Source: Rhodoferax bucti (GTDB lineage: Bacteria > Pseudomonadota > Gammaproteobacteria > Burkholderiales > Burkholderiaceae_C). Taken from it: DNA of 64,000 nucleotides. Position numbers and translations under genes: made by a program. The stretch lies in NCBI RefSeq assembly GCF_005876985.1, contig NZ_VAHD01000002.1:62001-126000 (forward strand). Direction: 5' to 3'. Below, in pieces: positions 9,036 through 55,913 of this stretch. Below the pieces are notes generated by a model. The model saw only the letters and a list, made by a program, of their open reading frames with translations, was not told where the DNA came from and did not search any database. How positions within the stretch are numbered: position 1 is the first letter of the stretch; every line of letters starts with the position of its first letter.

Positions 9036-10816
9036 GCGCCGGGCTCACCTGCGTTGCCCGCGTCCGCATTGGGCTCCAGCACCCAGCGCTGGTTGTGGAA
9101 GGCCGCCACACCGGGGCGGTGCGCAATCGACACCAAGGCGCCGCCTTGGGCACTCACCATATCGCACAAGCGCTGGTAGAGCGTGGCCTCGGCGGCCTCG
9201 TCCAGTGCGCTGGTGGCCTCATCCGCAAACAGCCACTGGGGTTGCTTGAGTAGCACGCGGGCAATCGCCAGGCGTTGCTGCTCGCCGCCGGAGAGCTTTT
9301 GGCTCCAGGCGTCCACGGTGTCCAGCGCATTCGCCAAGTGGGGGAGCAAGGCATCGCGCAGGGCTTGCTGCAGCTCGGCATCGCTGTAACGCGTGGTGGC
9401 CTCGGGGTAGGCCAGTGCATCGCGCAAGGGGCCGTTGGGGAAGTAGGCCCGCTGCGGCAAAAACATGCTGTCGGCCGGCAAGGCTACCGCGCCATCGGCA
9501 TACGGCCAGATGCCCGCTAAGGTGCGGAACAAGGTGGATTTGCCGCTGCCCGAGGGGCCTTGCAGCAGGATACGGTCGCCGGGCTGCGCATGCAGATGGG
9601 TGTGGTCCAGCAAGGTTACACCGGTGGGCAGGGCAATGCGCAGGGGGCTGGTGTCCAAGGTGGTGGGGATTGCTCCTTTTTTGATAGCTGCTTGCGCAGA
9701 TTCTGTAAGCGCTAGAGCCCTAAAAGCCTCTTCAAAGCTGGTCAGACGATCGGTGGTGGCCCGCCAGCTGGCCAGGCTGCTGTAAGTGTCCACAAACCAG
9801 CTCAAGGAGCCCTGCACCTGCCCGAAGGCGCCCGAGATTTGGGTGAGCTGCCCGAGCTGGATGGCACCGCTGAAAAACCGCGGCGCTGCCACCACAAACG
9901 GAAACACCACGGCAGCCTGCCCGAAAAAGCTGGTGAACCAGATCAATCCCTTTTGCGCCTTGATGAGCGCGAGGTTGTTGGCCAGCACCTTGCCAAAGCG
10001 CTGCACCATTTGCTCGCGCACCACGGTCTCGCCCCGGTCCAACGCAATCGATTCACTGTACTCCCGCGCCCGCACCATGTGGTGGCGAAAGTCCGCCTCC
10101 ACCCGTTGCTGCTCAAAGTTGAGCGGGATTTGCTTGCGGCCGATGTAGTGCGTGATCACGCTTCCCACTGCGCAGTACAGCACCGCCATCCACACCATGA
10201 AGCCGGGGATGTTGTATTCCTGCCCGCGCAGGGTGAAGGCAAAGCCGCCCGAGAGCGTCCACAAAATGCCCACAAAACTGGCCAGTGTGACCACCGAATT
10301 CAGCAGTCCCATGCTCAGCGAGATGGTGTAGCTGGTGAACTGGTTGATGTCCTCCTGAATACGCTGGTCCGGGTTGTCGGGGTTGGCGCCGTGGGCGTGG
10401 CCGTTGGGGGCAAAGCGGGCCAGCTCCAGGCGGTAAAAGGCCTGGTGGGCCATCCACCTGTGCAGGTAGTGGCCGGTCATCCAGGCGCGCCAGCGCATTT
10501 CCAGCAGCTGGGTCAGGTAAAACTTGTAGACCGCAATGATGATGAAGCCGAACGCCAGGTAGGTAAAGCGGCCCAGCTGCTCCCAGAAAACGGCGGCGTT
10601 TTTGTCTTGCAGCGAGTCGTAAAACAGGCGGTTCCAGTCGTTGAACACCACCGCCATGTAGACCAGCGCCAGGTTTAGCGCCACGATGGCGGCCAGCATG
10701 CCGCGGGCCTTCCACTTGTCCTCCGACGAGAAGTAGGGCGTGGACAAGGCCACGGCCCGCAGGATGAACGCTTTGAACGCCGCCCACTTGGCGGAAACAG
10801 ATGCCACAAATGCCAT
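8993..10816 (-). CDS. SbmA/BacA-like ABC transporter, fused membrane and ATPase domains
   Basis: 607 aa from ATG 10816 ([11 protein letters not shown]). The N-terminal ABC_membrane_2 domain (SbmA/BacA/YddA type) spans about residues 30-330 with several hydrophobic segments and the [14 protein letters not shown] motif. The nucleotide-binding domain has Walker [10 protein letters not shown] near residue 420, signature LSGGEQQR, Walker B WLFADEAT and an H-loop SIAHRP. Relatives handle peptides, cobalamin or very-long-chain fatty acids, and the substrate here is unknown. Residues about 367-382, between the two domains, are encoded by a copy of the dispersed 48-nt repeat. The 3' end overlaps queC by 43 nt. 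Confidence 0.92.
9672..9718 (-). repeat. Dispersed 48-nt repeat, copy 1, inside the ABC transporter gene
   Basis: On the minus strand it reads CTCTAGCGCTTACAG, then TGCGCAAGCAGCTATC, close to the copies at 39729 and 55864. It is in frame and encodes the linker between the membrane and ATPase domains (about residues 367-382, ending [10 protein letters not shown]). Confidence 0.75.
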
Positions 10817-10912
10817 GCAAAAACTCTCGGTAGGGAATTGGGGCAAGCGCCGCGCTGTGCGCTGCGCCCGGTGCTGCGGGGATATTAGCGCCCGCAGCAA
10901 GCTGCCTGTGCT

Positions 10913-11161
10913 TTACAGGCTTTGAAACCCGCTCTGGTGTGTGTCTGCCGGCGAGTGTTCATGTCCATCGGCTTCGGCACGCAAGGGTGCCGGGCAGGTA
11001 GCCCGCACCAACTCCGCCGTGCGGTGGTAGCCCTCTTTGGCGAGCCGGCGCCACGCTTCTGCATTGGCGGAAAGTGTGTGGTGGCCGGGTTGCAGTGCGC
11101 GCTGCGCAGGTGCGCTGCGCGGTGCGGCGGACGGTGGCAAACGGGGTTCTGCATAGGACAT
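10913..11161 (-). CDS. Possible small hypothetical protein, 82 aa
   Basis: This is the only plausible gene in 10817-11253. It is cytoplasmic-looking with no signal peptide, and its centre (LSANAEAWRRLAKEGYHRTA) reads as an amphipathic helix. It lies on the same strand as the 5'-nucleotidase upstream and the ABC transporter downstream. No convincing ribosome binding site precedes ATG 11161, and I recognise no family. The rest of 10817-11253 shows nothing clear beyond a small CAGGAT/ATCCTG-type hairpin near 11168. Confidence 0.4.
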   Translation of the reverse strand: MSYAEPRLPPSAAPRSAPAQRALQPGHHTLSANAEAWRRLAKEGYHRTAELVRATCPAPLRAEADGHEHSPADTHQSGFQSL

Positions 11162-11253
11162 GACAAGCAGGATAGTCCTGCCCCCTCTCTGTGTCAGCCG
11201 GTTTTACATAGGTTTACCAGTTCGATTTTGGCGTTTACATGTTGGACACGTTC

Positions 11254-12147: not shown

Positions 12148-12156
12148 GGGAAATCC

Positions 12157-12982: not shown

Positions 12983-14203
12983 TTATTTCACCAGTTGATT
13001 CAGTTGGACGATGGGCATTAATACCGCCAGCACGATCAGCATCACCACCAGACCCATGACTACGATGAGCAGCGGCTCCAGAAGCGTGGCGAGCTGCAGG
13101 GCGCGGCGTTGCACCTCGGTGCGCAGTTGCAGGGCAGCGCGGTCCAGCATGTGGGGCAGGCGGCCGGTTTGTTCGCCCAGGCGGGCAAACATGCTCAAGA
13201 GGGCGGGAAAGCGTTGCTTGCGCGCCAGCGCACTGGCCAGTGGCGCACCTTCACGCACTAGGGCCAGGGCCTCTAGCGCGTCGTCGCGCATGGCGCGGTT
13301 GCCCAGCGTTTCAGCGGCAGCTTGCAGGGCCTTCAAGATGGGCACACCCGCTGCCGCCAACATGGCCAGCGTGCTGGCAAAGCGGGCTGCGTTGTAGCTG
13401 CGGGCCAGGCGGCCCAGCACGGGCAAGCGCAACCAGGCGGCATCCACTTTGGTGCGAAAAGTGCCGCTAGCCCATGCCACACGTGCGCAAGAAGCTCCTG
13501 AAATAATAGCAACCAACGCCAGCCAGCCATAACTGCGCACTGCGCCACTCACCGCCAGCATGGCGCGGGTGAGCAGCGGCAAGGCCTGTTTCGAGCCCGC
13601 AAATACATTGGCAATTTGCGGCACCACATAGGCCAGCAAAAACAGCACAATAGCCAGCGCCACGATGCTCACGATCGCCGGGTACAAGGCAGCCCCCAGC
13701 AGCTTGGCCGAGAGGTCTTGCTGCTCTTCCAGGTCGTCCGCCAGGCGCTCCAGCACCAGTCCTAATTGACCGCTTTGTTCGCCAGCGCTGACCACGGCGA
13801 TATAGATGGGGGTGAATTCCCGGGGGTGTTGTGCCAGTGCCGCGCCCAGGGACGCGCCGGCGTTGACTTCTGCGCGCACGGTAGCCACCACATCGCGCTG
13901 GGCCGTTTTTTCTGCCTCGTCCGCCAAGGCGCTCAGGGCGCGCTCCAGCGGCAGCCCGGCGCTGACTAAGCCTGCGAGCTGCCGGGTCCAGACGGCGCGC
14001 TGGTTGGGTTTGAACGCCCGCCGGCCCCATGCGCTGTGGGCGGTGGCGTTGTCCGCAGTGTTTCCAGCCAGTGCTTGCACCTGCATGGGCACCAGTTGCT
14101 GCCCCCGCAGCAGCGTGCGGGCCGACTTGGCCGTGTCCGCCTCCAGAACGCCGGAGCGTGTCTTGCCATCGGCATCAAGGGCTTGGTAGGAAAAAGCGGG
14201 CAT
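12983..14203 (-). CDS. gspF: Type II secretion inner-membrane platform protein GspF
   Basis: 406 aa. It has the N-terminal MPAFSYQALDADGKTRSGVLE segment and two T2SSF domains (about residues 70-195 and 275-395) with paired membrane segments (ALYPAIVSIVALAIVLFLLA and LLEPLLIVVMGLVVMLIVLA). GspF forms the inner-membrane core with GspE, GspL and GspM. In most T2SS operons gspF directly follows gspE, but here the two are separated by a LysR/DUF4148 cassette of about 1.8 kb. A dispersed repeat copy encodes residues about 231-247, in or beside a membrane segment. gspF needs its own promoter or read-through past the terminator at 14234. Confidence 0.96.
   Translation of the reverse strand: MPAFSYQALDADGKTRSGVLEADTAKSARTLLRGQQLVPMQVQALAGNTADNATAHSAWGRRAFKPNQRAVWTRQLAGLVSAGLPLERALSALADEAEKTAQRDVVATVRAEVNAGASLGAALAQHPREFTPIYIAVVSAGEQSGQLGLVLERLADDLEEQQDLSAKLLGAALYPAIVSIVALAIVLFLLAYVVPQIANVFAGSKQALPLLTRAMLAVSGAVRSYGWLALVAIISGASCARVAWASGTFRTKVDAAWLRLPVLGRLARSYNAARFASTLAMLAAAGVPILKALQAAAETLGNRAMRDDALEALALVREGAPLASALARKQRFPALLSMFARLGEQTGRLPHMLDRAALQLRTEVQRRALQLATLLEPLLIVVMGLVVMLIVLAVLMPIVQLNQLVK
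13465..13512 (+). repeat. Dispersed 48-nt repeat, copy 2, inside gspF
   Basis: It reads CGCTAGCCCATGCC, then GTGCGCAAGAAGCTCCTG, then ATAGC, a diverged copy most like the one in pgi (36435-36482). In the gspF frame (minus strand) it encodes LVAIISGASCARVAWAS, at a predicted membrane segment. Confidence 0.6.
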
Positions 14204-18895: not shown

Positions 18896-21004
18896 TCAAG
18901 GTTTGGCAGGCAGACCTGGCAACACCGGCGCCTCGTTCACCGGCATGGTGCTGCTGGGCTCCGGCTGGGCATTTTGTTGGGTGCTGCGCATTTGTTCGTA
19001 GCGCTCGTTGGAGAGGGCTTGCGTGGCGGTGGCATCGCGCACCACCACCGGGCGCAAAAACACCATCAGGTTGGTCTTTTTGCGGCTGCGGGATTCGCTT
19101 TTGAACAGATTGCCGAACCAGGGCACATCGGCCAGGCCGGGCACTTTTTCCTGGTTGCCTGCGTACTCGTCCTGTAGCAGTCCACCGAGCACCACGACGG
19201 CGCCGTCTTCCACCAGCACGTTGGATTCGATGGTGCGCTTGTTGGTGGTCGGGCCATTGGCTGCGCTCGCGGTGGAGGCCAGCACGCTGGACACCTCCTG
19301 GTAAATCGCCAGCTTGATGGTGCCGTTTTCGCTGATCTGGGGCTTGACCTTGAGTGTGAGGCCTACGTCTTTGCGCTCAATGGTCTGGAAGGGGTTCACG
19401 CTGCCGGTGCTCGCCCCGGTGTTGGTGAACTGGCCGGTCACAAAAGGCACGTTCTGGCCGATGACGATCTTGGCCTCTTCGTTGTCCAGCGTCAGCAAGT
19501 TGGGGGTGGAGAGCACATTGCCGCTGCCGGTGGACTCCAGAAAGCGTGCCAGAAAGCCCAGCACGTAGACGCCGTTGGTGCGGTTGGCCACGCCCAGGTT
19601 GAGCCCCTTGGCCGGCGACACCGTGCCCGAGGCGCCCGCTGTGGCCAGGCTGATGATGTTGCTGCCGCCACTGCCGAAGTTGGTGCCCAGCACGCCCACG
19701 GCGCTGTCGCCCGCATTGCCCAGCGCGCCTTGCCACTGGATGCCGAACTCGGCGGCCTTGTCGGCGCTCACCTCGGCAATCAGGCTTTCTACAAACACCT
19801 GGGCGCGGCGTGCGTCCAGCTTGTCGATGACGGCGCGCAGCTGCCGGTACTGTGGCTCGCTGGCGGTGATGATGAGGGAGTTGGTGGCCGGGTCGGCCTG
19901 GATCTGGCCGCCGGTGCTGGGGGTGGCAACCGCGCCCAGATTGCTGCCGCCCGTACCCGTGCTGCTGGTGTTACCCCCCGCAGGTGCAGCGGGGGCGGCA
20001 CTGGCGGTCAGGGCGCTGCCCGCGCCGGTGGCGCTCATGGCAGCGCGCAAGGTGGTGGCCAGTTGGGTGGCGTTGGCGTTTTTCAGGTAGACCACGTAAA
20101 TATTGCCGGCCGCGCCGTTGCTGCCGGCCGTGGGCTGGTCCAGCCGCTCAATCAGGCTACGTGCCAGCGCCAGCCGGGCCTGGTTGGCCGCCCGCACGAT
20201 GAGCGCGTTGCTGCGCGGTTCGGGCACCACGGTGGTTTTGAAGCTGGCATCCGCCGCCGCCCCGGTGGCACCGCCGCCCGAGCTTTCCATCAAGCGCAGC
20301 ACCAGCGGCGCCAGGTCGGTAGCGCTGGCGTTTTTGAGCGTGATGACTTCCACATCGGTGGCATTGGGCACATCGAGTGCTGCCACGATGCGGGATAGGC
20401 GCCGCAGGTTGTCGGCGTAGTCGGTGATCACCAGCGAATTGGTCGCCGGGTTCACGTTGATCGGGTTGTTGGGGTTGATCAGCGGGCGCAGCACGGCCAC
20501 CAGGTTGTTGGCGTTTTCAAACTGCAGCTTGATGATTTGCGTCACCAGCTGGTTGCCCGGTGCGTTGGCGGTGCCGCTGTCGGTGGAGGTCACGCTGCCG
20601 CCCAGCAACTTGGCATCGGCCTCGGGCACCACCTTGTCCAGGCCATCGGTTTGCACCACGGTGTAGCCCATGGTGCGCAGCACAGCCAGAAAGTGGTTGT
20701 AGGCCCGGGCGGGGGACATGGGGCTGTCGGACACCAGCGTCATGGTGCCTTTGACGCGCGGGTCCACCACCACATTGCGCCCCGTCAGCGTGGCCATGGT
20801 GCGGGCCACGGCTTCCACCTCGGCGTTGCTGAAGTTGAGGGTGATGGGCTCGCCCCGCTTGGCGGCGGGCGTGTTGGGGCTGGTTTGTGCCAGCGCTTGT
20901 GTGCCAAATAGGCCGATAGTGCCCGTCCACAGTGCGCCAGCAGCTATCAAATGCATAGCGATGGTGGTGGCGCGCAAGCGAGTGGACCGGTGGTGGTGTG
21001 GCAT
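18896..21004 (-). CDS. gspD: Type II secretion outer-membrane secretin GspD
   Basis: 702 aa. After the signal peptide the N0 domain starts at LNFSNAEVEAVARTMATLTG. N1-N3 domains follow (NATDVEVITLKNASA and IYVVYLKNANATQLATTLRA), with a Gly/Ser/Thr-rich linker near residues 330-370, then the secretin domain (VFVESLIAEVSADKAAEFGI, LSTPNLLTLDNEEAKIVIGQ). It multimerises into the outer-membrane channel. The h-region of the signal peptide (residues about 15-32) coincides with a copy of the dispersed repeat. It follows gspN after 3 nt. Confidence 0.97.
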   Translation of the reverse strand: MPHHHRSTRLRATTIAMHLIAAGALWTGTIGLFGTQALAQTSPNTPAAKRGEPITLNFSNAEVEAVARTMATLTGRNVVVDPRVKGTMTLVSDSPMSPARAYNHFLAVLRTMGYTVVQTDGLDKVVPEADAKLLGGSVTSTDSGTANAPGNQLVTQIIKLQFENANNLVAVLRPLINPNNPINVNPATNSLVITDYADNLRRLSRIVAALDVPNATDVEVITLKNASATDLAPLVLRLMESSGGGATGAAADASFKTTVVPEPRSNALIVRAANQARLALARSLIERLDQPTAGSNGAAGNIYVVYLKNANATQLATTLRAAMSATGAGSALTASAAPAAPAGGNTSSTGTGGSNLGAVATPSTGGQIQADPATNSLIITASEPQYRQLRAVIDKLDARRAQVFVESLIAEVSADKAAEFGIQWQGALGNAGDSAVGVLGTNFGSGGSNIISLATAGASGTVSPAKGLNLGVANRTNGVYVLGFLARFLESTGSGNVLSTPNLLTLDNEEAKIVIGQNVPFVTGQFTNTGASTGSVNPFQTIERKDVGLTLKVKPQISENGTIKLAIYQEVSSVLASTASAANGPTTNKRTIESNVLVEDGAVVVLGGLLQDEYAGNQEKVPGLADVPWFGNLFKSESRSRKKTNLMVFLRPVVVRDATATQALSNERYEQMRSTQQNAQPEPSSTMPVNEAPVLPGLPAKP
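20910..20960 (+). repeat. Dispersed 48-nt repeat, copy 3, in the gspD signal-peptide region
   Basis: It reads GGCCGATAGTGCCCGTC, then GTGCGCCAGCAGCTATCAAA, then CATAGCG, matching the 47651 and 52851 copies. On the coding (minus) strand it encodes LIAAGALWTGTIGLF, the hydrophobic core of the GspD signal peptide. Confidence 0.7.
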
Positions 21005-22350: not shown

Positions 22351-23567
22351 GGGCTGATGACCCAGGTGTTGCCGTCTTGCCGCGCTCGGTAGCCACGGGC
22401 TTGCAGGCCGCTGCGCAGGCTCTCGGGGGGCTCGGCGCCGGCACCGGGTGGTGGAGTCAGACGCAACTCGCCTGCTACAAATTCAATAGCTGTTGGCGCA
22501 TATTCAACGGGCGCTAGCGTGCCAAAAGCCTCTAGCAGTCGCTCCAGGTCGCGGTTTTGGAGCTGGCCGCTGTGTTGGCCGAGTGCGGCCACCGCGCGTT
22601 CCATTTGCCGTGGTGCATCCACCACCACCGTGGTGGCCGGAAAGGTGCTCAACAGCACACCCTGTAGGGCGGCACGCTGGGTGGCCAGGGTCTCGCGGGC
22701 TTGCCAGGCTTGGGCATTGAGCCCCAGCAGTTGCACGCCGCACAGCACTGCCACAGCCCAACGCGCGGGGCGCCAGGCGGGCGCATCCCATGCCGAGCGT
22801 GCGGCGTCGAGCAGCTTGTGGCCCAGGGCATTGCGGTGGGCGAATTCGCCCTGCGCCAGGTTCCAGGGGCTGTTGGCGGCGTCCAGCAGGCGCTGCCCGC
22901 GGTTGTGGACTTGGGCCTCGCGGTGCAACAGCTGCTCGGCCCGGGCGGCGCAGCCCGGCTCGGCCCACAAAGAGGCGTCGGCAGGCAGGCCGGGGGGCTG
23001 CTGCGTCTGCCCGTGGGGCAGGGGGCGGCCATGCACGCCGTAGGCATCGGCCCACACCACGGTGCAGGCCTCGGCCTCCCCAGTGAACCAGAGGGCGGTG
23101 GGGCTGCCTTCGGGCAAGGGCGCCCATTCCGGAGCGATGCGTTGAACGCGGTGGCCGGTGTGGGTGAGGGTCTGCAGGGTTTGGTGCAGCCAGGTTTTAT
23201 CGCAAACCGATACCCACAGCGGGCCCGCGCCGGCAGCGTCTGGCGTCAGGGCGAAATGCAGGCGGGCGGGGTCGTCGAGCAGGTGGTCTTCCAGCAGCCC
23301 TTCCAGAGCGGCGCGCAGGCGGGTGGCGTTGCGGGCTTCTCCATGGCGCCCCAGCAGGCCGGGGGGCAGCTGTACCCGGTGCCAGGACAGCGCCGCTGCG
23401 GGTAGCAGCACGACGGTGCTGGCACCCGACACGGCCGCTGGTGGTGTGCTGCTGCGTTGGCAGTGCTGCGGTGTGTCGCTGAGCACGCTGTCCCACGCTG
23501 CTCCTGTGCCCGCAGCGCCATCGACCGAGGTGTGGGGGGCGGGGGGCATCACAAGGTGCAGGCGCAT
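22347..23567 (-). CDS. gspL: Type II secretion protein GspL
   Basis: 406 aa. The N-terminal actin-like cytoplasmic domain (VVLLPAAALSWHRVQLPPG, and LEDHLLDDPARLHFAL) recruits GspE. A membrane segment near residues 265-285 leads to a ferredoxin-like periplasmic domain. Residues about 350-366 (LAPVEYAPTAIEFVAG) are encoded by a copy of the dispersed repeat and closely resemble a peptide in PGI from the same window. It overlaps gspM by 4 nt. Confidence 0.92.
   Translation of the reverse strand: MRLHLVMPPAPHTSVDGAAGTGAAWDSVLSDTPQHCQRSSTPPAAVSGASTVVLLPAAALSWHRVQLPPGLLGRHGEARNATRLRAALEGLLEDHLLDDPARLHFALTPDAAGAGPLWVSVCDKTWLHQTLQTLTHTGHRVQRIAPEWAPLPEGSPTALWFTGEAEACTVVWADAYGVHGRPLPHGQTQQPPGLPADASLWAEPGCAARAEQLLHREAQVHNRGQRLLDAANSPWNLAQGEFAHRNALGHKLLDAARSAWDAPAWRPARWAVAVLCGVQLLGLNAQAWQARETLATQRAALQGVLLSTFPATTVVVDAPRQMERAVAALGQHSGQLQNRDLERLLEAFGTLAPVEYAPTAIEFVAGELRLTPPPGAGAEPPESLRSGLQARGYRARQDGNTWVISP
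22471..22519 (-). repeat. Dispersed 48-nt repeat, copy 4, inside gspL
   Basis: On the coding strand it reads GCTAGCGCCCGTTGAATATG, then CGCCAACAGCTATTGAAT, then TTGTAGCAGG. It is in frame and encodes LAPVEYAPTAIEFVAG. The pgi copy in the same orientation encodes VAPVQYAGAAPEFIA. Confidence 0.8.
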
Positions 23568-26526: not shown

Positions 26527-27021
26527 ATGATAATGCGCCGCATGCCCCTTACCGCGTCGCCCTGGCCCCCTCGTCTTGCCGCCTTGCTGTTGTCTGCAGC
26601 AGCGGCCGGGAGCGCGGCGTATTGGGCCCTGCATTGGCGGGTGGCGTCAGAGTTGCCGGTTTCTGCCGGCCCCGTAGCCGCTGCGGGCGCGGAGGTGGAT
26701 ACGACCGCAGTCGCCCGGGCCCTGGGGGCCTCTGGGGCATTCGCCCCGGCGACCGGCGCCACGGCACCCGCTGGTGACGTGGAGGCCGCACGCTTTGTGC
26801 TCTCCGGCGTGGTGGCCGATGCGTCTGCCCCGGGTCGTGCCTTGATTGCCGTGGATGGCAAACCGGCCAAACCGGTCGCCGTGGGTGCGGTGGTGGCTGA
26901 AGGCTGGACGCTGCATCGGGTGGAAGCGCGCCGTGCTGTGCTCCGCCGCAATGGCGCGGAGCTGGAGTTGCAGTTGCCTCCGCTTCCCCAACCTGTGTCT
27001 ATGGGTAAAAAAGGGCTCTAG
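26527..27021 (+). CDS. gspC: Type II secretion protein GspC (N-terminal/HR domain)
   Basis: 164 aa. One N-terminal membrane anchor (LAALLLSAAAAGSAAYWALH) is followed by the homology-region domain (FVLSGVVADASAPGRALIAV, GKPAKPVAVGAVVAEGWTL), which contacts the N0 domain of GspD. It lacks a C-terminal PDZ or coiled-coil domain, as in the short betaproteobacterial form. ATGs at 26533 and 26542 are alternative starts. Its TAG stop lies within a dispersed repeat copy. Confidence 0.85.
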   Translation: MIMRRMPLTASPWPPRLAALLLSAAAAGSAAYWALHWRVASELPVSAGPVAAAGAEVDTTAVARALGASGAFAPATGATAPAGDVEAARFVLSGVVADASAPGRALIAVDGKPAKPVAVGAVVAEGWTLHRVEARRAVLRRNGAELELQLPPLPQPVSMGKKGL

Positions 27022-27048
27022 CGCCCGCCAGCCCTGCGCGGACAGCTA

Positions 27049-27060
<12 letters not shown>
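27013..27060 (+). repeat. Dispersed 48-nt repeat, copy 5, spanning the gspC and ilvA 3' ends
   Basis: It reads GGGCTCTAGCGCCCGCCAG, then CTGCGCGGACAGCTATC, then TTTTTGCAG. It supplies the TAG stop of gspC on the plus strand and the TGA stop and last codons of ilvA on the minus strand. Confidence 0.7.
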
Positions 27061-28731
<1,671 letters not shown>

Positions 28732-36122: not shown

Positions 36123-37691
36123 ATGGCACGTACCCGTTGTGACCGCACGCCCGCCTGGGCCCAACTGCAAGCTGCATACCAAGCGACTGGTCAAGCGCTC
36201 GACGTGCGCGAGGCCTTTCAGGCCGATGCGCAGCGTTTCAGCCGCTTCAGCCAGGAGGCGCCTTATGTGTTTGCGGACTTGTCCAAAAACCGTATTGACG
36301 CCGCGACCGAGGGCCTGCTGCTGGACCTGGCGCGCCAGAGCGGTCTGTTGGAGCACCGCGATGCCATGTTCGCCGGCCAGAAGATCAACCACACCGAGCA
36401 GCGCGAGGTGTGGCACGTTTTGTTGCGAAATCCGCCTGTAGCGCCCGTGCAATATGCGGGAGCAGCTCCTGAATTCATAGCGTCAGAGCAGGCCAAGGTG
36501 CACACCACCTTGGACGCGATGCTGGCCTACGCCGAAACCTTGCGCGCAGACAAAGTCATTACCGATGTGGTGAACATCGGCATCGGCGGCTCCGACCTCG
36601 GTCCGCAAATGGCGGTGCTGGCCTTGGACGCATTCGCAGACAGTGGCAAGCGCCTGCACTTTGTGAGCAATGTGGACGGCCACGAGCTGGCCGCCAAGCT
36701 GCCGCACTTGAAGCCGGAAAGCACCGTCTTCCTGATTGCCAGCAAGACCTTCACCACCATCGAGACCATGACGAACGCGGCCTCCGCCAAGGCCTGGTTT
36801 CTGACGCAGGGTGGCACCGACATTGCCCGCCACTTCGCAGCCCTCACGACCAACGTGGCGGCGGCGAATGCATTCGGTATCACCACCACCTTCGGCTTTT
36901 GGGACTGGGTGGGGGGCCGCTATTCCATGTGGTCAGCCATCGGCCTGCCCATCGCGATTGCGGTTGGAGCCCAGGGCTTCCGTGAGCTGCTTGCGGGTGC
37001 GCACGCGATGGACGAGCACTTCCGCACCGCGCCGCTGGAAAGCAACCTGCCGGTGCGGCTGGGCCTGCTGGACGTGTGGTACCGCAACTTCCACCACTTC
37101 ACCAGCCGCAGCATCGCGCCTTATCACAGCGCTTTGCGCCGCCTGCCGGCCTACTTGCAGCAGCTGGAGATGGAAAGCAATGGCAAGCGTGTGGATGCGA
37201 GCGGCGAAGCCTTGCCTTTTGACACCTGCCCGGTGCTCTGGGGCGAGCCCGGCACCAACGGCCAGCACGCCTACTTTCAGATGCTGCACCAGGGCACCGA
37301 CGTGGTGCCGGTGGAGTTTATTGCGGTCAAAAAGGCGCGCCATGACCTGAAGGGCCACCACCCCATGCTGCTGGCCAATGTGCTGGCGCAGGCGCAGGCG
37401 CTGATGCAAGGAAAGAGTGATGTTGGCGGCCACAAGCATTTCACGGGCAACCGCCCCAGCACTTTCCTGTTGCTGGACGATTTGACGCCCGCTTCGCTGG
37501 GCGCGCTGATTGCGCTGCAGGAGCACCGCGTGTTTGTCAGTGGCAGCTTGTGGGGCATCAATAGCTTTGACCAGTGGGGCGTGGAGCTGGGCAAGGTGTT
37601 GGCCAAGGACATTGAGCCGCGCTTGGCGTCGGGCGATGTGTCCGGGTTGGATGGCTCGACGGCGGGGCTGTTGGCGCGTTTGCGGAGCTGA
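36123..37691 (+). CDS. pgi: Glucose-6-phosphate isomerase with repeat-derived loop
   Basis: 522 aa. PGI interconverts glucose-6-phosphate and fructose-6-phosphate. Family signatures are VVNIGIGGSDLGPQMAVLAL, SKTFTTIETMTNAASA, GRYSMWSAIGLPIAIAVG, and the C-terminal GSLWGINSFDQWGVELGK with the catalytic Lys. Residues 105-120 (VAPVQYAGAAPEFIA region) are encoded precisely by a 48-nt dispersed repeat copy at a surface-loop position where E. coli PGI has an unrelated sequence. Reading frame and all catalytic motifs are intact, so the enzyme should be active. Confidence 0.96.
   Translation: MARTRCDRTPAWAQLQAAYQATGQALDVREAFQADAQRFSRFSQEAPYVFADLSKNRIDAATEGLLLDLARQSGLLEHRDAMFAGQKINHTEQREVWHVLLRNPPVAPVQYAGAAPEFIASEQAKVHTTLDAMLAYAETLRADKVITDVVNIGIGGSDLGPQMAVLALDAFADSGKRLHFVSNVDGHELAAKLPHLKPESTVFLIASKTFTTIETMTNAASAKAWFLTQGGTDIARHFAALTTNVAAANAFGITTTFGFWDWVGGRYSMWSAIGLPIAIAVGAQGFRELLAGAHAMDEHFRTAPLESNLPVRLGLLDVWYRNFHHFTSRSIAPYHSALRRLPAYLQQLEMESNGKRVDASGEALPFDTCPVLWGEPGTNGQHAYFQMLHQGTDVVPVEFIAVKKARHDLKGHHPMLLANVLAQAQALMQGKSDVGGHKHFTGNRPSTFLLLDDLTPASLGALIALQEHRVFVSGSLWGINSFDQWGVELGKVLAKDIEPRLASGDVSGLDGSTAGLLARLRS
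36435..36482 (+). repeat. Dispersed 48-nt repeat, copy 6, in frame in pgi
   Basis: CCTGTAGCGCCCGTGCAATA, then TGCGGGAGCAGCTCCTGAA, then TTCATAGCG. It starts exactly at a codon boundary and spans 16 codons. The encoded peptide resembles the one in GspL. Confidence 0.8.
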
Positions 37692-37721: not shown

Positions 37722-37802
37722 CACAGCATGCAGGGGCACAGTGGCGGGCTCATGCTGCCACATGCGCAGAAATCGCCCGCCACCGCGCCCCTGCATGCTG
37801 TG
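37722..37802. repeat. Near-perfect 28-bp inverted repeat between pgi and the AlkX-like gene
   Basis: The left arm 37722-37749 (starts CACAGCATGCAGGGGC) and the right arm 37775-37802 (ends GCCCCTGCATGCTGTG) match at 26 of 28 positions around a 25-nt loop. There is no T run, so it is not a standard terminator. It may be a palindromic mobile repeat or a strong transcript hairpin ending the tal-pgi message. Confidence 0.75.
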
Positions 37803-39090: not shown

Positions 39091-39737
39091 ATGTGGTGTT
39101 TGACTTTGGCGCGGTGCTGTTCACCTGGCGCCCGGTGGATTTGATGATGGAGTGCTTTCCGCAGCGTGCGGCCACACGCGCCGAGGCGGGGCATTTGGCG
39201 CACGAAGTATTCGGCCATGCCGAATGGCAGGCGTTTGACCGCGGCACCATCGCCATGCCTGACTTGATTGCACAGATCGCGCAGCGTGTGGGGCTGGATG
39301 CCACAGTGCTGGGCGCGTTGGTGGAGAGCATTGGCGAGCGGCTCACGCCCATGCCGGAGTCCGTGGCCTTGTTTCGGCGTTTGGTAGCCGTGCGTGCGCT
39401 GCGGGCGAACCAAGGGGCCGAACCCTTGAAGCTTTACTACCTCTCCAACATGCCGGTGCCCTATGCCCGCAGCCTGGAGCGCATGAACGCGTTTTTGCAG
39501 GAGTTTGATGGAGGCGTCTTTTCAGGCGATGAGTTGCTCATCAAACCCGAGCCCGCCATCTACCAGCGCCTCCAAGCCCGCTACGCCCTGGAGCCCGCCA
39601 AGACGGTGTTTCTGGACGACCTGCTCCCCAACATCCAGGCCGCACAGGCCGAAGGCTGGTACGGCATCCACTTCCACAGCGCCCAGCAAGCTACGCAGGA
39701 GCTGCAAGCGCTTGGTTTAAGCGAAATCGGCCTCTAG
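39087..39737 (+). CDS. HAD-superfamily hydrolase (YihX-like)
   Basis: 216 aa. Motif I is VVFDFGAVLFTW: a nucleophile Asp followed by Gly instead of the second Asp, as in YihX-type sugar phosphatases. Motif II is YYLSNMPVPYARS, motif III Lys in GDELLIKPEPAIY, and motif IV VFLDDLLPNIQAAQAEG. It is translationally coupled to the AlkX-like gene. The substrate is unknown. The TAG stop is contributed by a dispersed repeat copy. Confidence 0.88.
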   Translation: MNVVFDFGAVLFTWRPVDLMMECFPQRAATRAEAGHLAHEVFGHAEWQAFDRGTIAMPDLIAQIAQRVGLDATVLGALVESIGERLTPMPESVALFRRLVAVRALRANQGAEPLKLYYLSNMPVPYARSLERMNAFLQEFDGGVFSGDELLIKPEPAIYQRLQARYALEPAKTVFLDDLLPNIQAAQAEGWYGIHFHSAQQATQELQALGLSEIGL

Positions 39738-39777
39738 CGCTTATGGGGCGTGCGTAAGCAGCTATTAAAAGCATAGC
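39729..39777 (+). repeat. Dispersed 48-nt repeat, copy 7, at the 3' end of the HAD gene
   Basis: GGCCTCTAGCGCTTATGG, then CGTGCGTAAGCAGCTATT, then AAAAGCATAGC. Its TAG ends the HAD gene. It is close in sequence to copy 11 (55864-55913). Confidence 0.85.
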
Positions 39778-39788
39778 AAAAAAGGCGT

Positions 39789-41620: not shown

Positions 41621-41641
41621 CTAAGATTTAAGTAAAAAGGA

Positions 41642-41689
41642 CTGCTAGCGCGCATCAGATATGCGCAACCAGCTATGAATTCAGTAGCG
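41642..41689 (+). repeat. Dispersed 48-nt repeat, copy 8, between groES and groEL
   Basis: CTGCTAGCGCGCATCAGATA, then TGCGCAACCAGCTATGAAT, then TCAGTAGCG. It fills most of the intercistronic spacer of the groESL operon, where it could affect message processing or the GroES:GroEL ratio. Confidence 0.8.
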
Positions 41690-41696
41690 GATCAGC

Positions 41697-46940: not shown

Positions 46941-47714
46941 CTATTGTTTCATGAGCTGGAGTTGCCTGACAAATCCGAGGCTGGTGCCGCTGGTGTTGTC
47001 GGCATCCGCCCCGGCGACGATGGCCAGCAGCGGCGGCACGGTCGTGGTTTCCCGGCCGAAAGCCGCCAGAAAGTCGGCATGCAAATCGCGCCGGTGGCCC
47101 AACCAGCGGCCCAGTGGATCGCTGCCGGTGTTGAGGATGTGCAAGCGCACCCGTGCGGTGTAGGCATTGTTCAGCACCGTGCCGGTGGGCAGAGTCTGGT
47201 CCCATACGTAGCAGAGGGTGGCGCCGGGCAGGGCTTCGCCGCTGATGCGCCGCGCCAGGCGCAGCAGGTTGCGCTCTACAAACGGAATCTGCTCCAAGGG
47301 CAAATCAAACAGCGCACAAATTTTGAGGGCCGCATCGTCGCCTTCTTTGCGGGTCAGGTCGGCATTGGCCAAGGCGTGGTCCAGCCGCCACTGCCATTGC
47401 AGGTAGCGGGGCGTGCTCGCCGGAGGCAGGGCATGGCTCAGCGCGCCGTAACTGCGATCGCTGCGCAGCCGCAGCACCCACTCCCCGTCCAGGGATTGGA
47501 TGTCGGGCGCGAGCAGGGGCACCTTGCCGCCGGGCAAGCCGATGACGCGCCAGGGCGGCAGCGGTGCGCCCTCGGTGGTGCCGGCCCAGGGTTGGAGTAC
47601 AGGGGCTTCAGCTTGTGCGTTTGCACCTCCACCAAGGCTCAAAATAAGGTAAAAAAGGCCGATAGCGCCTGTGCGGATTGCGCGACTAGCTATGGATTTG
47701 GTAGCGCTGTGCAT
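46941..47714 (-). CDS. DUF3047 domain-containing secreted protein
   Basis: 257 aa from ATG 47714, only 1 nt after the selD stop. The signal peptide (residues about 1-33, IRTGAIGLFYLILSLGGGAN) is largely encoded by a dispersed repeat copy. The DUF3047 fold is recognisable from YLQWQWRLDHALANADLTRK, EGDDAALKICALFDLP, YVWDQTLPTGTVLNNAYTAR and the closing TSLGFVRQL. Function is unknown; it is presumably periplasmic. The tight packing between selD and the second flavoprotein argues for a shared pathway. Confidence 0.85.
   Translation of the reverse strand: MHSATKSIASRAIRTGAIGLFYLILSLGGGANAQAEAPVLQPWAGTTEGAPLPPWRVIGLPGGKVPLLAPDIQSLDGEWVLRLRSDRSYGALSHALPPASTPRYLQWQWRLDHALANADLTRKEGDDAALKICALFDLPLEQIPFVERNLLRLARRISGEALPGATLCYVWDQTLPTGTVLNNAYTARVRLHILNTGSDPLGRWLGHRRDLHADFLAAFGRETTTVPPLLAIVAGADADNTSGTSLGFVRQLQLMKQ
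47651..47706 (+). repeat. Dispersed 48-nt repeat, copy 9, encoding the DUF3047 signal peptide
   Basis: AAGGCCGATAGCGCCTGTGC, then GATTGCGCGACTAGCTATGG, then TTTGGTAGCG. On the coding strand it gives KSIASRAIRTGAIGLF, comparable with LIAAGALWTGTIGLF in GspD, which is encoded by copy 3 in the same orientation. Confidence 0.75.
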
Positions 47715-50151: not shown

Positions 50152-50157
50152 AAGTTT

Positions 50158-52407
50158 CTAGCCGCGCTTCCAGTCGTGGAACTTGCGCACCCATTCCAGC
50201 AGCTTGTGCGGCTGGTGCGCGAGCTTCCATTCGCCGGCGGCGTATTTGTTGGCTTCGGCCAGTGTGGGGTAGGTGTGGATCGTGCCCAGAATCTCGTTGA
50301 GACCCAGCCCGTGTTTCATGGCCAGCACGTACTCAGCCAGCAGGTCACCTGCGTGTGTGCCGACGATGGTCACGCCCAGAATCTTGTCTTTGCCCGGCAC
50401 GGTTAGCACCTTCACAAAGCCGTGGGTCTCGCTGTCCGGCCCTTCATCACATATGGCGCGGTCCAGGTCGTCAATGCTGTACTTGGTCACCTCGTAGGCA
50501 AGGCCTTGCTCTTGGGCGTCCTGCTCGTTGAGGCCCACGCGCGCTACCTCGGGGTCGATAAACGTGGCCCAGGGGATGACCGAGTAGTCGGCCTTGAATT
50601 TCTTGAAGTCACCGAACAGCGCGTTCACCGCTGCATACCAGGCCTGGTGTGCCGCCGTGTGGGTGAATTGGTAGGGCCCGGCCACATCGCCCGCCGCAAA
50701 AATGTTGGGGTAGATGGTCTGCAGGTACTCGTTGGTTTGCACCGTCTTGTGGGTGGGGATGCCCAGCTCCTCCAAACCGTAGCCGCTAAGGCGCGCAGTG
50801 CGGCCCACGGCGCACAGCAGTTGGTCGAATGCAATGCGTTTTTCTACGCCAGCGTGTTCCACGATGAGTACGCCGCCTGTGGGCACGGAGCCCTGCGCCA
50901 TGCCTTCGACAGGTTCAGGCTGAGCGGAGGGGCGAGGGTGCTTCTCAACGCGCAGTGCCTTGTGGCTGGTGAGCAGGTCCACGCCATCGGCGCGTAGCGA
51001 AGCGGCGGCGAGCTCCGACACTTCCATGTCTTCCCGCGCCATGATGCGCGGCGCCATTTCCACCTGGGTCACGGCAGAGCCCAGGCGTGCAAAACTTTGC
51101 GCCAGCTCACAGCCAATCGGCCCGCCGCCAAGCACGACCAGACGCTTTGGCACTTCGTCCAGCTTGGCGAATTCGTCCCATAGCGTGTCACTGGTCACAT
51201 AGCCCACTTCTTCAAGTCCCGGTAGCGGTGGCACGAAGGGCCGTGCGCCAGTGGCGATGACGATGCTGCGGGTGGTCAGGGTTTGTGTGCCCCCGTCGTT
51301 GAGCGCAATTTCCACTGTCCAGGGGTTGATGATCTTGGCGTAACCCTGCAGCACCTCCACGCCCAGGCCGGTGTAGCGCTCCACACTGTCGTGGGGCTCA
51401 ATGGCGGCGATCACATCGTGAATGCGCTGCATCACTGCCTTGAATGAAAAGAGGCTCTGGCGCTCGTCGGATGTGCGCAGGGTGCTATGCAAACCATAGC
51501 GCTCCGCATGCTGCATCTGGTGAGCGAGCTTGGCGCTTTTGATCAGGGCCTTGCTGGGTACGCAGCCGTAGTTGAGGCAGTCGCCGCCCATTTTGTGGGC
51601 CTCTACCAGTGTGACCTTGGCCTTGACCGCCGCGGCAATGTAGGCCGACACCAGCCCGCCCGCGCCCCCGCCGATGACGATGAGGTTGCGGTCAAAGGTC
51701 TTGGGGCGCACCGCGTTCCAGCGGGCGTAGACCTTGCGTTGTTGGATGAAGCTCATCAGCGCCTTGGCGAGCAATGGAAACACACCGAGCAGCACAAATG
51801 CCCCGAGCAATTGCGGGCTGGCCACGTCTTGGAGGGATTGCAGCTCTGCCAAGCGGGTGCCCGCATTCACGTACACCGCCGTGCCGGCCAACATGCCAAG
51901 CTGGCTCACCCAGTAAAAGGTGCGGGTGCGCATGGTGGTCAGGCCCATGGCGAGGTTGATCACAAAAAACGGCACCACCGGAATCAGCCGTAGGCTGAAC
52001 AGGTAGAGCGCACCGTCCCGCGCCACGCCTTGGTTGATATCGTTCAGCCGCGTGCCGAAGCGGGCTTGCACCACATCACGCAGCACAAAGCGCGCTGCCA
52101 GAAACGACACCGTCGCCCCCAGGCTGGACGCAAACGACACCAGCAGCAAGCCCCACCCGAAACCGAAGACGCCACCACCCGCCAAAGTCAGCAGGGCGGC
52201 ACCGGGGAGCGACAGCGAGGTCACCGCCAGGTACACCGCAAAGAAGGCGGCGCGCAGCTCCCATGGGTGGGTGGCGTACTGTGCCGCGAGCGTGGATTGG
52301 CTGCCCCGCAGGGCCTCCAGGCTCAGGAAGCGGCCCAGGTCTAGCGCCACAAAGGCAGCAATCGCCAGCGCAATCAGGGCGAGCACCAGCAGTTTGGACG
52401 CTTTCAT
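50158..52407 (-). CDS. Fusion of TVP38/TMEM64 membrane domain and flavoprotein disulfide reductase
   Basis: 749 aa from ATG 52407 (MKASKLLVLALIALAIAAFV). Residues 1 to about 230 are a TVP38/TMEM64 (SNARE-associated) membrane domain with FGFGWGLLLVSFASSLGATV. Residues about 240-749 are a class I pyridine nucleotide-disulfide oxidoreductase with redox pair GGDCLNYGCVPSKAL, two dinucleotide folds and the dimerisation domain with the HTYPTLAEA motif. It lacks the MerA heavy-metal domain and the C-terminal vicinal cysteines, so mercury reduction is unlikely. A short dispersed repeat is inserted in frame near residues 494-502 (SAQPEPVEG). Confidence 0.93.
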   Translation of the reverse strand: MKASKLLVLALIALAIAAFVALDLGRFLSLEALRGSQSTLAAQYATHPWELRAAFFAVYLAVTSLSLPGAALLTLAGGGVFGFGWGLLLVSFASSLGATVSFLAARFVLRDVVQARFGTRLNDINQGVARDGALYLFSLRLIPVVPFFVINLAMGLTTMRTRTFYWVSQLGMLAGTAVYVNAGTRLAELQSLQDVASPQLLGAFVLLGVFPLLAKALMSFIQQRKVYARWNAVRPKTFDRNLIVIGGGAGGLVSAYIAAAVKAKVTLVEAHKMGGDCLNYGCVPSKALIKSAKLAHQMQHAERYGLHSTLRTSDERQSLFSFKAVMQRIHDVIAAIEPHDSVERYTGLGVEVLQGYAKIINPWTVEIALNDGGTQTLTTRSIVIATGARPFVPPLPGLEEVGYVTSDTLWDEFAKLDEVPKRLVVLGGGPIGCELAQSFARLGSAVTQVEMAPRIMAREDMEVSELAAASLRADGVDLLTSHKALRVEKHPRPSAQPEPVEGMAQGSVPTGGVLIVEHAGVEKRIAFDQLLCAVGRTARLSGYGLEELGIPTHKTVQTNEYLQTIYPNIFAAGDVAGPYQFTHTAAHQAWYAAVNALFGDFKKFKADYSVIPWATFIDPEVARVGLNEQDAQEQGLAYEVTKYSIDDLDRAICDEGPDSETHGFVKVLTVPGKDKILGVTIVGTHAGDLLAEYVLAMKHGLGLNEILGTIHTYPTLAEANKYAAGEWKLAHQPHKLLEWVRKFHDWKRG
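50903..50927 (-). repeat. TTCGACAGG-type dispersed repeat inside the oxidoreductase gene
   Basis: The plus strand reads CCTTCGACAGGTTCAGG, then CTGAGCGG. This resembles the CTTCGACAGGCTCAGG palindromic repeat found between and within genes in many proteobacteria. It is in frame and encodes SAQPEPVEG on the coding strand. Confidence 0.65.
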
Positions 52408-52417
52408 GCAGGGCCTT

Positions 52418-53023
52418 TCAGGAAAACGCGCGCCAACCCCACCAGATGCGAGTGGCAGTGGTGATGGCACACAGGGCGGCAAAGGTGTAGGCCAGCATAT
52501 CGAAATGCGCAGGCCACAGGCACATGGCCACAAAGAAGGCCAGCGTTTCGGTGGCCTCGGTCAGCCCGCCCAGAAAGTAGAACGACTTGTCGGGGTAGGC
52601 CAGGTTGTCCATGCCGCGCTTGGCGGCCAGGGCGGCAAAGGCCAGAAAGCTGCTGCCGGTGCCGATGAAGGCGGCCAGCAGCGCGGCAGCGGGCAGGGCG
52701 TTGGCGGCCGGCGCAGCGACCGCAAAGGCCAGCGGAATGCTGGCGTAGAACACAAAGTCGAGCGAAATATCCAGAAAACCGCCCGCGTCGGTGGGCTGGG
52801 TCTCTCGCGCTACCGCACCGTCCAAGCCGTCCAGCAATCTGGAGGCTAACAAGGCGATAGCGCCCGCAGAATATGCGCCAGTAGCTATCAAAATCGCAGC
52901 AAGCATGCCGACGGCGAAACCTGCCAAGGTGACCGTGTTGGCGCCCACGCCGGCGCGCACCAGCAGGCGTGCCATGGCGTGCAGGGGCGGGCGCAAGAGG
53001 GGGGTGGCAAAGCGGTCGAGCAT
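52418..53023 (-). CDS. CDP-alcohol phosphatidyltransferase family protein (YnjF-like)
   Basis: 201 aa with about six membrane segments. The catalytic signature D-x2-DG-x2-AR-x8-G-x3-D-x3-D is complete (DGLDGAVAR, then GGFLDISLD). It would join a CDP-activated lipid to an alcohol in the inner membrane; the actual product is unknown. E. coli ynjF has the same relation to ynjBCD as seen here. A dispersed repeat copy encodes part of a membrane segment (LIATGAYSAGAIALLAS). It is followed 10 nt later by the TVP38 fusion gene. Confidence 0.92.
   Translation of the reverse strand: MLDRFATPLLRPPLHAMARLLVRAGVGANTVTLAGFAVGMLAAILIATGAYSAGAIALLASRLLDGLDGAVARETQPTDAGGFLDISLDFVFYASIPLAFAVAAPAANALPAAALLAAFIGTGSSFLAFAALAAKRGMDNLAYPDKSFYFLGGLTEATETLAFFVAMCLWPAHFDMLAYTFAALCAITTATRIWWGWRAFS
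52851..52900 (+). repeat. Dispersed 48-nt repeat, copy 10, in the CDP-alcohol phosphotransferase gene
   Basis: AAGGCGATAGCGCCCGCAG, then AATATGCGCCAGTAGCTATC, then AAAATCGCAGC. It encodes residues about 42-58, part of a membrane helix, in frame on the minus strand. Confidence 0.8.
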
Positions 53024-53080
53024 GGGCGGGGAGTCTACGTGGCGGAGGCTTACCCGTCAGTCGCGCGGGGGCGCAAGTTC

Positions 53081-54135: not shown

Positions 54136-55843
54136 GGTCGGATTGTGCCGATACGGAGGTGTGGGCGGGCCAGCGCCGCGCTTGTCCGGCCCAGGCGGCC
54201 AGGCCGAACACCAGCACCGGCAGCATCCACTGCAGCCAGGAAAAGGCAGCGGTCAGCGAGCGCTGCCCGCCCGCGGCCAAGGTCACAGCCTCGGTGGTGA
54301 TGGTTTGAAACCGGCCCGCGCCCACATACAAGGTCGGCAAGTACTGCGCCACGCTGACCGCAAAGCCCACCGCCAAGGCGGCTGCCAGCGGTGCGCGCAG
54401 CAACGGCCATTTCACCCGCAGCAAAAACACCGTGTGCGGCTGACCCAGGGTGGCGCTCACCTGCTGCAAGCGCCGGTCAAAACCGAGGTAAGGCCCTTGC
54501 AGCGCGATCAGCACATAGGGCACGCAGGCCAGGGTGTGGGCCAGCCACAGGCCGGTGGCCGTGGTGTCCAAGCCCCAGGCGATGCTCAGGCGGTGCAGGC
54601 CCACCACCCATAACACGCTGGGGAGCACCAAGGGCAACATCCAGAGCGCCGAGCTGCGCTGCTGCCAGCGTGGTGGCGCCCACTCCAGCCATGCCACCAC
54701 CCACACCAGCGCGGCGCAGGCGCTACTCAGCCCCAGCCACACGGTGGTCCAGAGGCTGTCGTGGCTGCCCGCGACACTGGCCCAAGCGGCGTGGGTGAAT
54801 GCCGTCGGCAGCAGGTCGGGAAAAGGCCACGGCCCGGTGACGCTGCCGATGAGCAGGGCCAACATCACAGCGGCATAAACCGCCAGAAGCGTTGCCGCCA
54901 AACATGGCGTGCGCGGGGCTTGCCGGGTTGCTTGGTGGCGTGGGGTGCCGTGGGCCAGGTCATTGCCCCGCGTCCAGCGCCCGCGCCACATGCGCCAGCG
55001 GAGTGCGGCCCAGAGCGCGCCCGCACAGGCCGCCAGCACCAGCGTCAGCACCCATGCGGCAGCGGCGCCTTGGGCATTGGTGGCGGGGTCGGCGTCCTGC
55101 AGCCATTGCCAGGCCAGCATGGCCAGCGTGGGCGGCGCGGTGGGGCCGATGACTAGCGCCACATCCACTACTGTGAGGCTGTAAGCCAGCACCGCCAAGA
55201 GCGGCGCGCGCAGGCGGGGCAATAGCTGGGGCCAGCCCACGCGCCACCAGGCTTGGGCGGCGCTGTAGCCCAAGATGTGGGTCAGGCGCAGCTCCTGGTG
55301 CAGGCGGCGGGCTACATCGGGGCGCTGCAGGTGGGCCAGTGCGGCCCACAGCAAAAACGGCACTTCCTTGAGCACCAGCACCGCCATCAGCCCCAGACCC
55401 CACGGGTCTTGCGTGGTGGGCCAGGGCGGCGGCGTGGTCAGTCCGGTGGCCCAGGGCGAGAGCAGGCGTAGCACCCAGCCGCTGGGCGCCAGCAGCGCCA
55501 CCAGCCCGATGGCAAAGGCCGCATGCGGCACGGCCAACAGCGGTGCCAGCCAGCGGGTGAGGCGTTGTGTGGCGTGGGTGTGCAGGCGCCCCGCAGTGGC
55601 GGCGAGCACGGCCGCTGTGGCGCCCACGGCCAGAGCGGTGGATGCCAGCCCGGTCCAGAGCGTCAGCGCGAGGGCTTGCAGCAGGTGAGGCTCTTGTGCC
55701 AAGGCCTGCCAAGCACCAGCATCCAGCCCGGCGGCCAGCGCGCCCCACAGGCTCCACAGCAGCGGCAAAGCCACCACGGCCATGAGCGCAAGCGCGAGGG
55801 CATGGCGGGCAGTGGGGCGCAGTTGGGGGCGGCGGACTTGCAT
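54125..55843 (-). CDS. ABC transporter permease, duplicated type (YnjC-like)
   Basis: 572 aa from ATG 55843 (MQVRRPQLRPTARHALALAL). It has about twelve membrane segments in two homologous halves, each with a BPD-type EAA loop (HILGYSAAQAWWRVGWPQLL in the first, SATLGQPHTVFLLRVKWPLL in the second). This is the YnjC or ThiP/FbpB architecture. With the YnjD-like ATPase it would form an importer for an unidentified solute. It is the promoter-proximal gene of the minus-strand cluster. Confidence 0.9.
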   Translation of the reverse strand: MQVRRPQLRPTARHALALALMAVVALPLLWSLWGALAAGLDAGAWQALAQEPHLLQALALTLWTGLASTALAVGATAAVLAATAGRLHTHATQRLTRWLAPLLAVPHAAFAIGLVALLAPSGWVLRLLSPWATGLTTPPPWPTTQDPWGLGLMAVLVLKEVPFLLWAALAHLQRPDVARRLHQELRLTHILGYSAAQAWWRVGWPQLLPRLRAPLLAVLAYSLTVVDVALVIGPTAPPTLAMLAWQWLQDADPATNAQGAAAAWVLTLVLAACAGALWAALRWRMWRGRWTRGNDLAHGTPRHQATRQAPRTPCLAATLLAVYAAVMLALLIGSVTGPWPFPDLLPTAFTHAAWASVAGSHDSLWTTVWLGLSSACAALVWVVAWLEWAPPRWQQRSSALWMLPLVLPSVLWVVGLHRLSIAWGLDTTATGLWLAHTLACVPYVLIALQGPYLGFDRRLQQVSATLGQPHTVFLLRVKWPLLRAPLAAALAVGFAVSVAQYLPTLYVGAGRFQTITTEAVTLAAGGQRSLTAAFSWLQWMLPVLVFGLAAWAGQARRWPAHTSVSAQSDHDA

Positions 55844-55863
55844 GCCGGAATCATAATGAAATC

Positions 55864-55913
55864 GGCCTCTAGCGCTTGCGGAATATGCGCAAGCAGCTAT
55901 TAAAAACATAGCG
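55864..55913 (+). repeat. Dispersed 48-nt repeat, copy 11, between the araC-type and permease genes
   Basis: GGCCTCTAGCGCTTGCGGAA, then TATGCGCAAGCAGCTATTAA, then AAACATAGCG. This is the best-formed copy. It fills the 81-nt spacer and contains internal complementary parts (GCGCTTGC with GCGCAAGC). Confidence 0.85.

Follow-up and report, generated by a model that had tools for sequence, protein, structure and literature searches.

A dispersed two-module DNA element of Rhodoferax bucti, held in place and in spelling, as a putative class of chromosomal binding sites

Introduction

Short dispersed bacterial repeats are usually regarded as mobile debris. Whether that description suits one such family is the question raised by a 64,000-nucleotide stretch of Rhodoferax bucti (contig NZ_VAHD01000002.1, positions 62,001 to 126,000; hereafter the window). 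An earlier note, made from the sequence alone, had marked eleven copies of a short repeat here, some of them in frame within genes, and had likened them to the Rickettsia palindromic elements. The evidence presented below points to a chromosome-wide binding protein and not to freshly jumping repeats. The family itself, its exact internal spacing, its positions shared between species, the constraint on its DNA and its tracking of lineages are established by our observations.

A family of several hundred elements

The eleven copies lie where they had been placed and, together with a twelfth that the earlier note lacked, they align without gaps into one profile of 57 columns. The copies in the window are:

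9670..9726, minus strand: in the SbmA/BacA-like ABC transporter gene (8993-10816, minus strand); profile match
13456..13512, plus strand: in gspF (12983-14203, minus strand); profile match, length-neutral in all 30 orthologues examined
20905..20961, plus strand: at the start of gspD (18896-20977, minus strand); profile match
22472..22528, minus strand: in gspL (22347-23567, minus strand); profile match
27007..27063, plus strand: at a convergent junction, overlapping the end of a threonine dehydratase-like gene (27049-28695, minus strand); profile match
36427..36483, plus strand: in pgi (36123-37691, plus strand), in a linker of variable length; profile match
39723..39779, plus strand: where a HAD-like gene (39087-39737, plus strand; convergent with groEL) has its stop codon; profile match
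41634..41690, plus strand: between groES and groEL; profile match
47651..47707, plus strand: between two minus-strand genes; profile match
51446..51502, plus strand: the twelfth copy, in a VTT/FAD oxidoreductase gene (50158-52407, minus strand); profile match
52846..52902, plus strand: in a CDP-alcohol phosphatidyltransferase-like gene (52418-53023, minus strand); profile match
55858..55914, plus strand: between two minus-strand genes; profile match with the top score in the window

Searched with the profile, the window together with 400 kb of contig C1 (464 kb in all) held 73 places scoring at least 16 bits, 72 of which scored at least 25 bits, and the reversed sequence held none. A loose expression matched the window eight times; 40 order-2 Markov sequences averaged 0.025 matches, with at most 1 in any of them. 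Genome-wide, a strict pattern (TAGCGC-N11-GCGC-N4-AGCT-N10-TAGC, up to two mismatches) found 478 copies (253 + 225) in 3.67 Mb and its backward control none; in the profile search, which scored 150 of 4133 candidates, all 150 matched. The earlier note was thus right to describe a dispersed family, in either orientation and with in-frame copies within genes, as a major feature of this Comamonadaceae genome. Its estimate of one copy per 6 kb holds because, in two stretches of the genome, copies lie 6.2 and 6.7 kb apart on average. Its count of seven copies in coding sequence came out slightly lower, as our own simple gene caller, which also served for the genic context below, placed six of the eleven wholly within genes, and the twelfth copy in addition.

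Copies are not clustered. The closest neighbours in three stretches are 445, 768 and 445 bp apart, and no tandem or close inverted pairs of the BIME or REPIN type were found in these stretches. Among 68 copies, the most similar pair is 84% identical. Two element-free stretches of 40.7 kb (G000:C2:201694-242397) and 33.7 kb (G000:C1:309319-343024) have a GC content of 0.54, against 0.61 overall, and are probably islands.

For genic context, as for the covariation and A-tract counts below, copies under 36 bits were excluded. The remaining 67 comprise 27 genic copies (12 along the gene, 15 against it), 13 in convergent gaps, 24 in same-direction gaps and 3 in divergent gaps; in the background, gaps of at least 50 bp number 22, 130 and 47, respectively. 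A single stop-free phase is used by 21 of the 27 coding copies. Orientation relative to the nearest gene shows no preference (the same in 65 of 135), and no convincing strand polarity along the replicon was seen in three stretches. Among the 150 best copies of a related genome, G007, neighbours show a slight excess of co-orientation (62 switches versus 74.6 expected, P = 0.019), which did not recur in the three stretches.

Conservation of position and of DNA spelling

For positions, the 464 kb described above were compared with a syntenic stretch of 400 kb in G007. Fifty-six of the 60 mappable copies occupy the same place, in the same orientation, in both species. Of the four called absent in G007, three are low-scoring copies with an ungapped counterpart just under the threshold, and one is the copy in garD, discussed below. 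The reverse comparison gave 54 shared copies, 2 absent and 12 unmapped.

Change within shared copies follows the information content of the columns. Across 29 intergenic pairs it amounts to 0.090 per site in high-information columns versus 0.338 in low-information columns (r = -0.78); the flanks of these pairs have diverged by roughly 20% (about 0.20 per site), and every 60 nt of them contain 0.9-1.4 gap openings. The relation holds when the profile is built from other copies only (Spearman rho -0.78, p = 1.3e-12, substitution versus information), and it persists in the 37 pairs with nine differences or fewer (0.036 versus 0.162). Coding copies can be examined at fourfold-degenerate sites. In 27 coding pairs, 6 of 113 such sites had changed under informative columns (the first profile gave 5 of 109), compared with 21 of 70 under uninformative columns and 578 of 2086 in flanking codons (p = 4.6e-9). 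This test is conservative: in the flanks it is the sites ending in A or T that change fastest (152 of 259), and under the element such sites have changed least (2 of 63). By orientation, changes number 2 of 72 in copies opposite to their gene and 4 of 41 in copies along it. Because positions are shared and fourfold sites under conserved columns have rarely changed, it is the DNA itself that is constrained: the spelling is kept as DNA, not as protein or RNA, and independently of transcription and coding.

Structure of the element

The element is slightly longer than the profile, running from about column -9 to +60, which gives a size of about 57-68 bp; its information amounts to about 60 bits across 57 columns and about 65 across 70. 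A core module, TGCGC-N4-AGCTAY-N2-A-tract-N2-RTAGC, lies at a fixed distance from an upstream module made up of an A-tract and GGCCTCTAGCGC. This spacing is strict, with no shift in 66 of 67 joined half-site pairs. The 3' half was found alone at 11, 10 and 13 places in three stretches and the 5' half at 0, 2 and 0 (controls 0), counts which include palindrome echoes and complete copies whose 5' half is weak. As the 3' half occurs alone and the 5' half hardly ever does, the former is probably the core of the element.

Strong correlations between columns are confined to neighbours: columns 2-4 read AAA or TTT, and columns 46-48 form A/T runs without TpA. In 121 of 126 copies the latter columns hold A/T only, and one of these 121 has a TpA step, versus 29% under column shuffling; TpA steps occur in 8 of 98 cases in columns 2-5 (42% shuffled) and in 3 of 86 in columns 45-48 (39%). 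Such TpA-free runs are an A-tract signature, which is read in DNA. Two dyads, GCTAT...ATAGC and GCGC...GCGC, are conserved, and no outstanding covariation was found in dyad registers i+j = 46 to 55, in dyad 39-43/51-55 or among all column pairs. Columns 51-54 read [A/G][T/G]AG, with no covarying hairpin adjoining. Rfam, at E up to 1, gave seven weak matches in the window, none of which overlaps any copy.

Occurrence in related genomes and phages

A search with pgi places the window within the Comamonadaceae, beside records of bacterium OS-4 and Rhodoferax. When 300 genomes of the order were scanned with the strict pattern, the 291 that belong to other families gave 0-5 matches. Within the same bacterial family, 41 of 200 genomes have at least 20 copies (maximum 635) and the remainder at most 15. 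The genus divides sharply, even between sister species: 16 of its 41 genomes carry 58-478 copies (repeat-rich) and 25 carry at most 7 (repeat-poor). Elements of other genera have identical spacing around a different middle (e.g. GCGCTTAT...AAGCGC), in the manner of dialects.

Phages of these hosts also carry sites, since 19 IMG/VR contigs match the strict pattern, each of the 19 with an element score. Among the genes that contain or adjoin these copies are portal, tail-tube, polyvalent, antirepressor and filamentous-phage replication genes. Two IMG/VR loci (L202 and L209) have in-frame copies in giant polyvalent phage proteins with LPD domains, of 2805 and 2238 aa.

Origin of individual copies

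The history of the copy in gspF can be read from the genus, 11 of whose 41 genomes yielded no gspF locus. The 30 orthologues obtained are all gapless across the site, and the copy was therefore not inserted there. The site is recognisable in 11 of 11 repeat-rich and 0 of 19 repeat-poor genomes (scores of 29 to 61 and -57 to -16, respectively). On a gspF tree built without the site columns, the repeat-rich genomes need three changes, versus 9.1 with shuffled labels, on a grouping whose uniting branch is supported at 81/75 only. Two genomes, G008 and G322, nest among the repeat-rich ones with the letters of the site eroded and the protein segment kept. Contig C74 of G322 carries an IS200-like Y1 gene (11185-11547) and two elements (at 7961 and 12015), and may be contamination.

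Added residues were judged against homologues of known structure. There are none in gspF, in icmF or at the N-terminal copy of an acyl-CoA synthetase; PepN has about one, and the FAD oxidoreductase with the 51446-51502 copy about two. Longer loops than in the homologues occur at the second acyl-CoA synthetase copy (12 residues), in an N-carbamoylase-like protein (11) and in DapF (11), and GarD has about 17 added residues. At garD, this genome and G325 are 54 nt longer than nine other genomes, element included (scores of 48 and 35). Both origins, in place and by insertion, thus exist, and insertion alone cannot account for the family.

The alignment of orthologues at exact boundaries, which the earlier note had proposed, gives a divided answer: gspF speaks against insertion, while the garD gain, in 2 of 11 genomes, and the three coding copies in loops 11-12 residues longer than those of homologues speak for it. 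The note had also named the same sequence at the same place in other genera as telling against its view, and this is found in part at pgi, where linkers are mostly 69 nt with a recognisable site and mostly 48-69 nt without one. Rhodoferax-like, Polaromonas and Acidovorax loci have the element between groES and groEL; elsewhere its place is taken by other spacers. This gap is a small-repeat hot spot; in further Comamonadaceae loci (L088, L092, L093, L096, L112, L113, L118, L139) it holds unrelated repeat-like spacers, several of them with GCGGGACAGACCG...CTGTCC.

Two other repeats were observed in the window: a 159-nt unit present three times in tandem at 14288-14764 (80% and 74% identity to the first), and a strong inverted repeat directly after pgi at 37722-37802, with arms of 37 nt and 7 nt between them.

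Relation to described repeats

Parts of the motif had already been reported, unexplained, in 2017 (PMC5217627). The portion of that paper considered here presents spaced pentamer pairs as potential novel motifs, among them GCTTAT-N5-AAGCG in Acidovorax ebreus (114 copies) and ATAGCT-N22-CAAAAG in Polaromonas naphthalenivorans (125 copies), with Rhodoferax ferrireducens as the genome richest in pairs (140). An exact GCTTAT-N5-AAGCG recurs in relatives of our element in the same bacterial family (e.g. G111:C1:1757190), and a mostly intergenic location, often at convergent genes, is likewise shared. The spacing of the Polaromonas pair fits only on the supposition that its dialect reads CTTTTG at columns 10-15. 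That portion of the paper contains pentamer pairs only, and not the full element, its constraint or a mechanism. The BRE of Bordetella and other Betaproteobacteria are, in the part of their description consulted (PMC3110155), about 90 bp long, arranged in tandem arrays, present in up to 29 copies per genome and 69% GC. Like our element they are repeats of Comamonadaceae and relatives with some genic copies, but the element is 57-68 bp long and without close neighbours, distinctions drawn from the published description. We found no description of the element as a unit in the literature searched, beyond whose reach most subscription papers lie.

Interpretation and competing explanations

From these observations we infer protein binding and chromosome organisation. 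In our judgement there is an even chance that the family represents several hundred sites bound by a sequence-specific protein whose role extends over the chromosome and is most likely that of organising it. Each site of about 57-68 bp would present the core and, at a fixed distance, the upstream module to this protein, which would act along the whole core chromosome. Selection on the DNA would hold each site in place, whether genic or intergenic and whichever way it faces relative to the gene. Some sites would have arisen in place with length unchanged, as at gspF, and at least one by insertion, as at garD; where the system is lost, sites would erode. Several observations weigh against such a role. 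The garD copy is one clear gain as a unit and a net insertion, copies occur on phage contigs, and repeat-poor G322 retains 19 profile matches. The constraint was measured between two species only, and 14 of 74 copies could not be mapped in that comparison. Furthermore, some 60-65 bits are far above what the addressing of about 500 sites needs, which fits copied DNA or drive rather than plain selection.

Repetitive extragenic palindromic (REP) sequences are a point of reference for a mobile past. They are short, number hundreds of copies, form close inverted or tandem pairs (BIME, REPIN), carry a GTAG or GGAG tetranucleotide beside a hairpin, and have a cognate gene for a REP-associated tyrosine transposase (RAYT). 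The element may be a REP-like family that was formerly spread by such a Y1 transposase and is now static, an account we consider rather unlikely. It shares the shortness and the copy number, and a RAYT-like gene, with the Y1 transposase fold and the HUH motif kept, is present in 39 of 41 genus genomes (G000:C1:16109-16768, L031, in this one); in most genomes of the genus this gene or its orthologue (L181-L200, L275-L294) has a 3' motif conserved near GATATGTCCCCAATTTAATT. An element-like stretch (score above -15) directly follows its stop codon in 13 of 16 repeat-rich loci versus 0 of 21 repeat-poor loci (p = 1.6e-7, although loci of related genomes are not independent, and two loci of G003 and one of G008 were missed by the motif used). 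In G015, a second Y1 gene stands between two full elements (scores of 51 and 52), and the garD insertion also suits a mobile origin. The RAYT-like gene does not track the repeats, however, being equally common in repeat-poor genomes and not found in repeat-rich G330, and an element beside it is a 10% event, as 43 of 416 genes in this genome have one near their 3' end. Nor does the element show the pairs, clusters or covarying hairpin of REP sequences; at least three coding copies are length-neutral, the closest pair of 68 copies is well short of identity, and constraint on individual copies, including that at DNA level within genes, is not required of selfish ones. The two readings could be one, since a RAYT-derived protein may still bind the element. 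The position presumed to be the catalytic tyrosine by reference to E. coli TnpAREP (whose entry 4er8 aligned only weakly) is F in this genome, G007 and G328, where the HUH histidines are kept, S in repeat-poor G018 and A in repeat-poor G014; the proteins of this genome and G007 share 63% identity (136/215). A RAYT-like protein without this presumed tyrosine is one candidate binder and no more.

DNA uptake sequences (DUS) of Neisseriaceae and uptake signal sequences (USS) of Pasteurellaceae, the latter with A-tracts, offer a different precedent, in which sites build up in place through uptake and recombination of the DNA that carries them. In-place origin within genes, a distribution over the core genome with scarcity in low-GC islands, intergenic as well as genic sites, A-tracts and lineage dialects of fixed spacing would all be in keeping with it. 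The element is about five times longer than DUS, however, and much longer than known uptake sequences in general; it is also far sparser, at one site per 6 kb. ComEC (PF03772), considered as a partner, was rejected, as it does not follow the repeats: it occurs in 35 of 41 genus genomes, including most repeat-poor ones, and was not found in repeat-rich G012, G319, G325 (99% complete) and G329 or in repeat-poor G011 and G335. Natural transformation with signs of sequence preference is described for Acidovorax and Verminephrobacter in the part of PMC4212676 considered, where tested Acidovorax strains were not transformed by DNA of other Acidovorax species and no uptake sequence is named. On balance, an uptake signal appears improbable. 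The kinship proposed by the earlier note fares worse still. Rickettsia palindromic elements insert as a unit into protein genes, add a peptide and keep their hairpin by compensatory changes; in-frame copies and the garD gain recall them, but the copies in gspF, icmF and the acyl-CoA synthetase N-terminus add nothing and those in PepN and the FAD oxidoreductase next to nothing, no compensatory changes in a stem were seen, spacing is exact, and DNA letters rather than a peptide are kept, in both orientations. We regard this kinship as very improbable, garD being the exception. Slightly less probable again is an element acting in RNA, such as a terminator, attenuator or small-RNA module. The conserved dyads and the excess of convergent over divergent gaps (13 versus 3 of 67 copies) would suit it, yet covariation is absent in the registers tested, no Rfam match overlaps a copy, and copies are kept within genes and in either orientation.

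Significance

Binding sites of a chromosome-wide protein, as favoured here, may amount to a new type of chromosomal site. Such a site would comprise two modules, about 65 bp and 60 bits, occur in about 500 copies, be written into genes without change of length, be kept while a lineage-variable partner persists and be lost site by site afterwards; that partner may be a RAYT turned DNA-binding protein. We offer this fuller picture tentatively, as possible but doubtful. Since conserved letters are held at synonymous sites within genes, single copies matter to the cell. Within one bacterial family, copy numbers reach the hundreds in many genera, and sister lineages close to these lack the element; G008 and G322, as natural losses, are useful in searching for the partner. 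If the protein were found, a chromosome-wide DNA system of the Comamonadaceae would be opened to experiment; if it proved to be the RAYT-like protein, it would provide a case of a transposase turned chromosomal protein.

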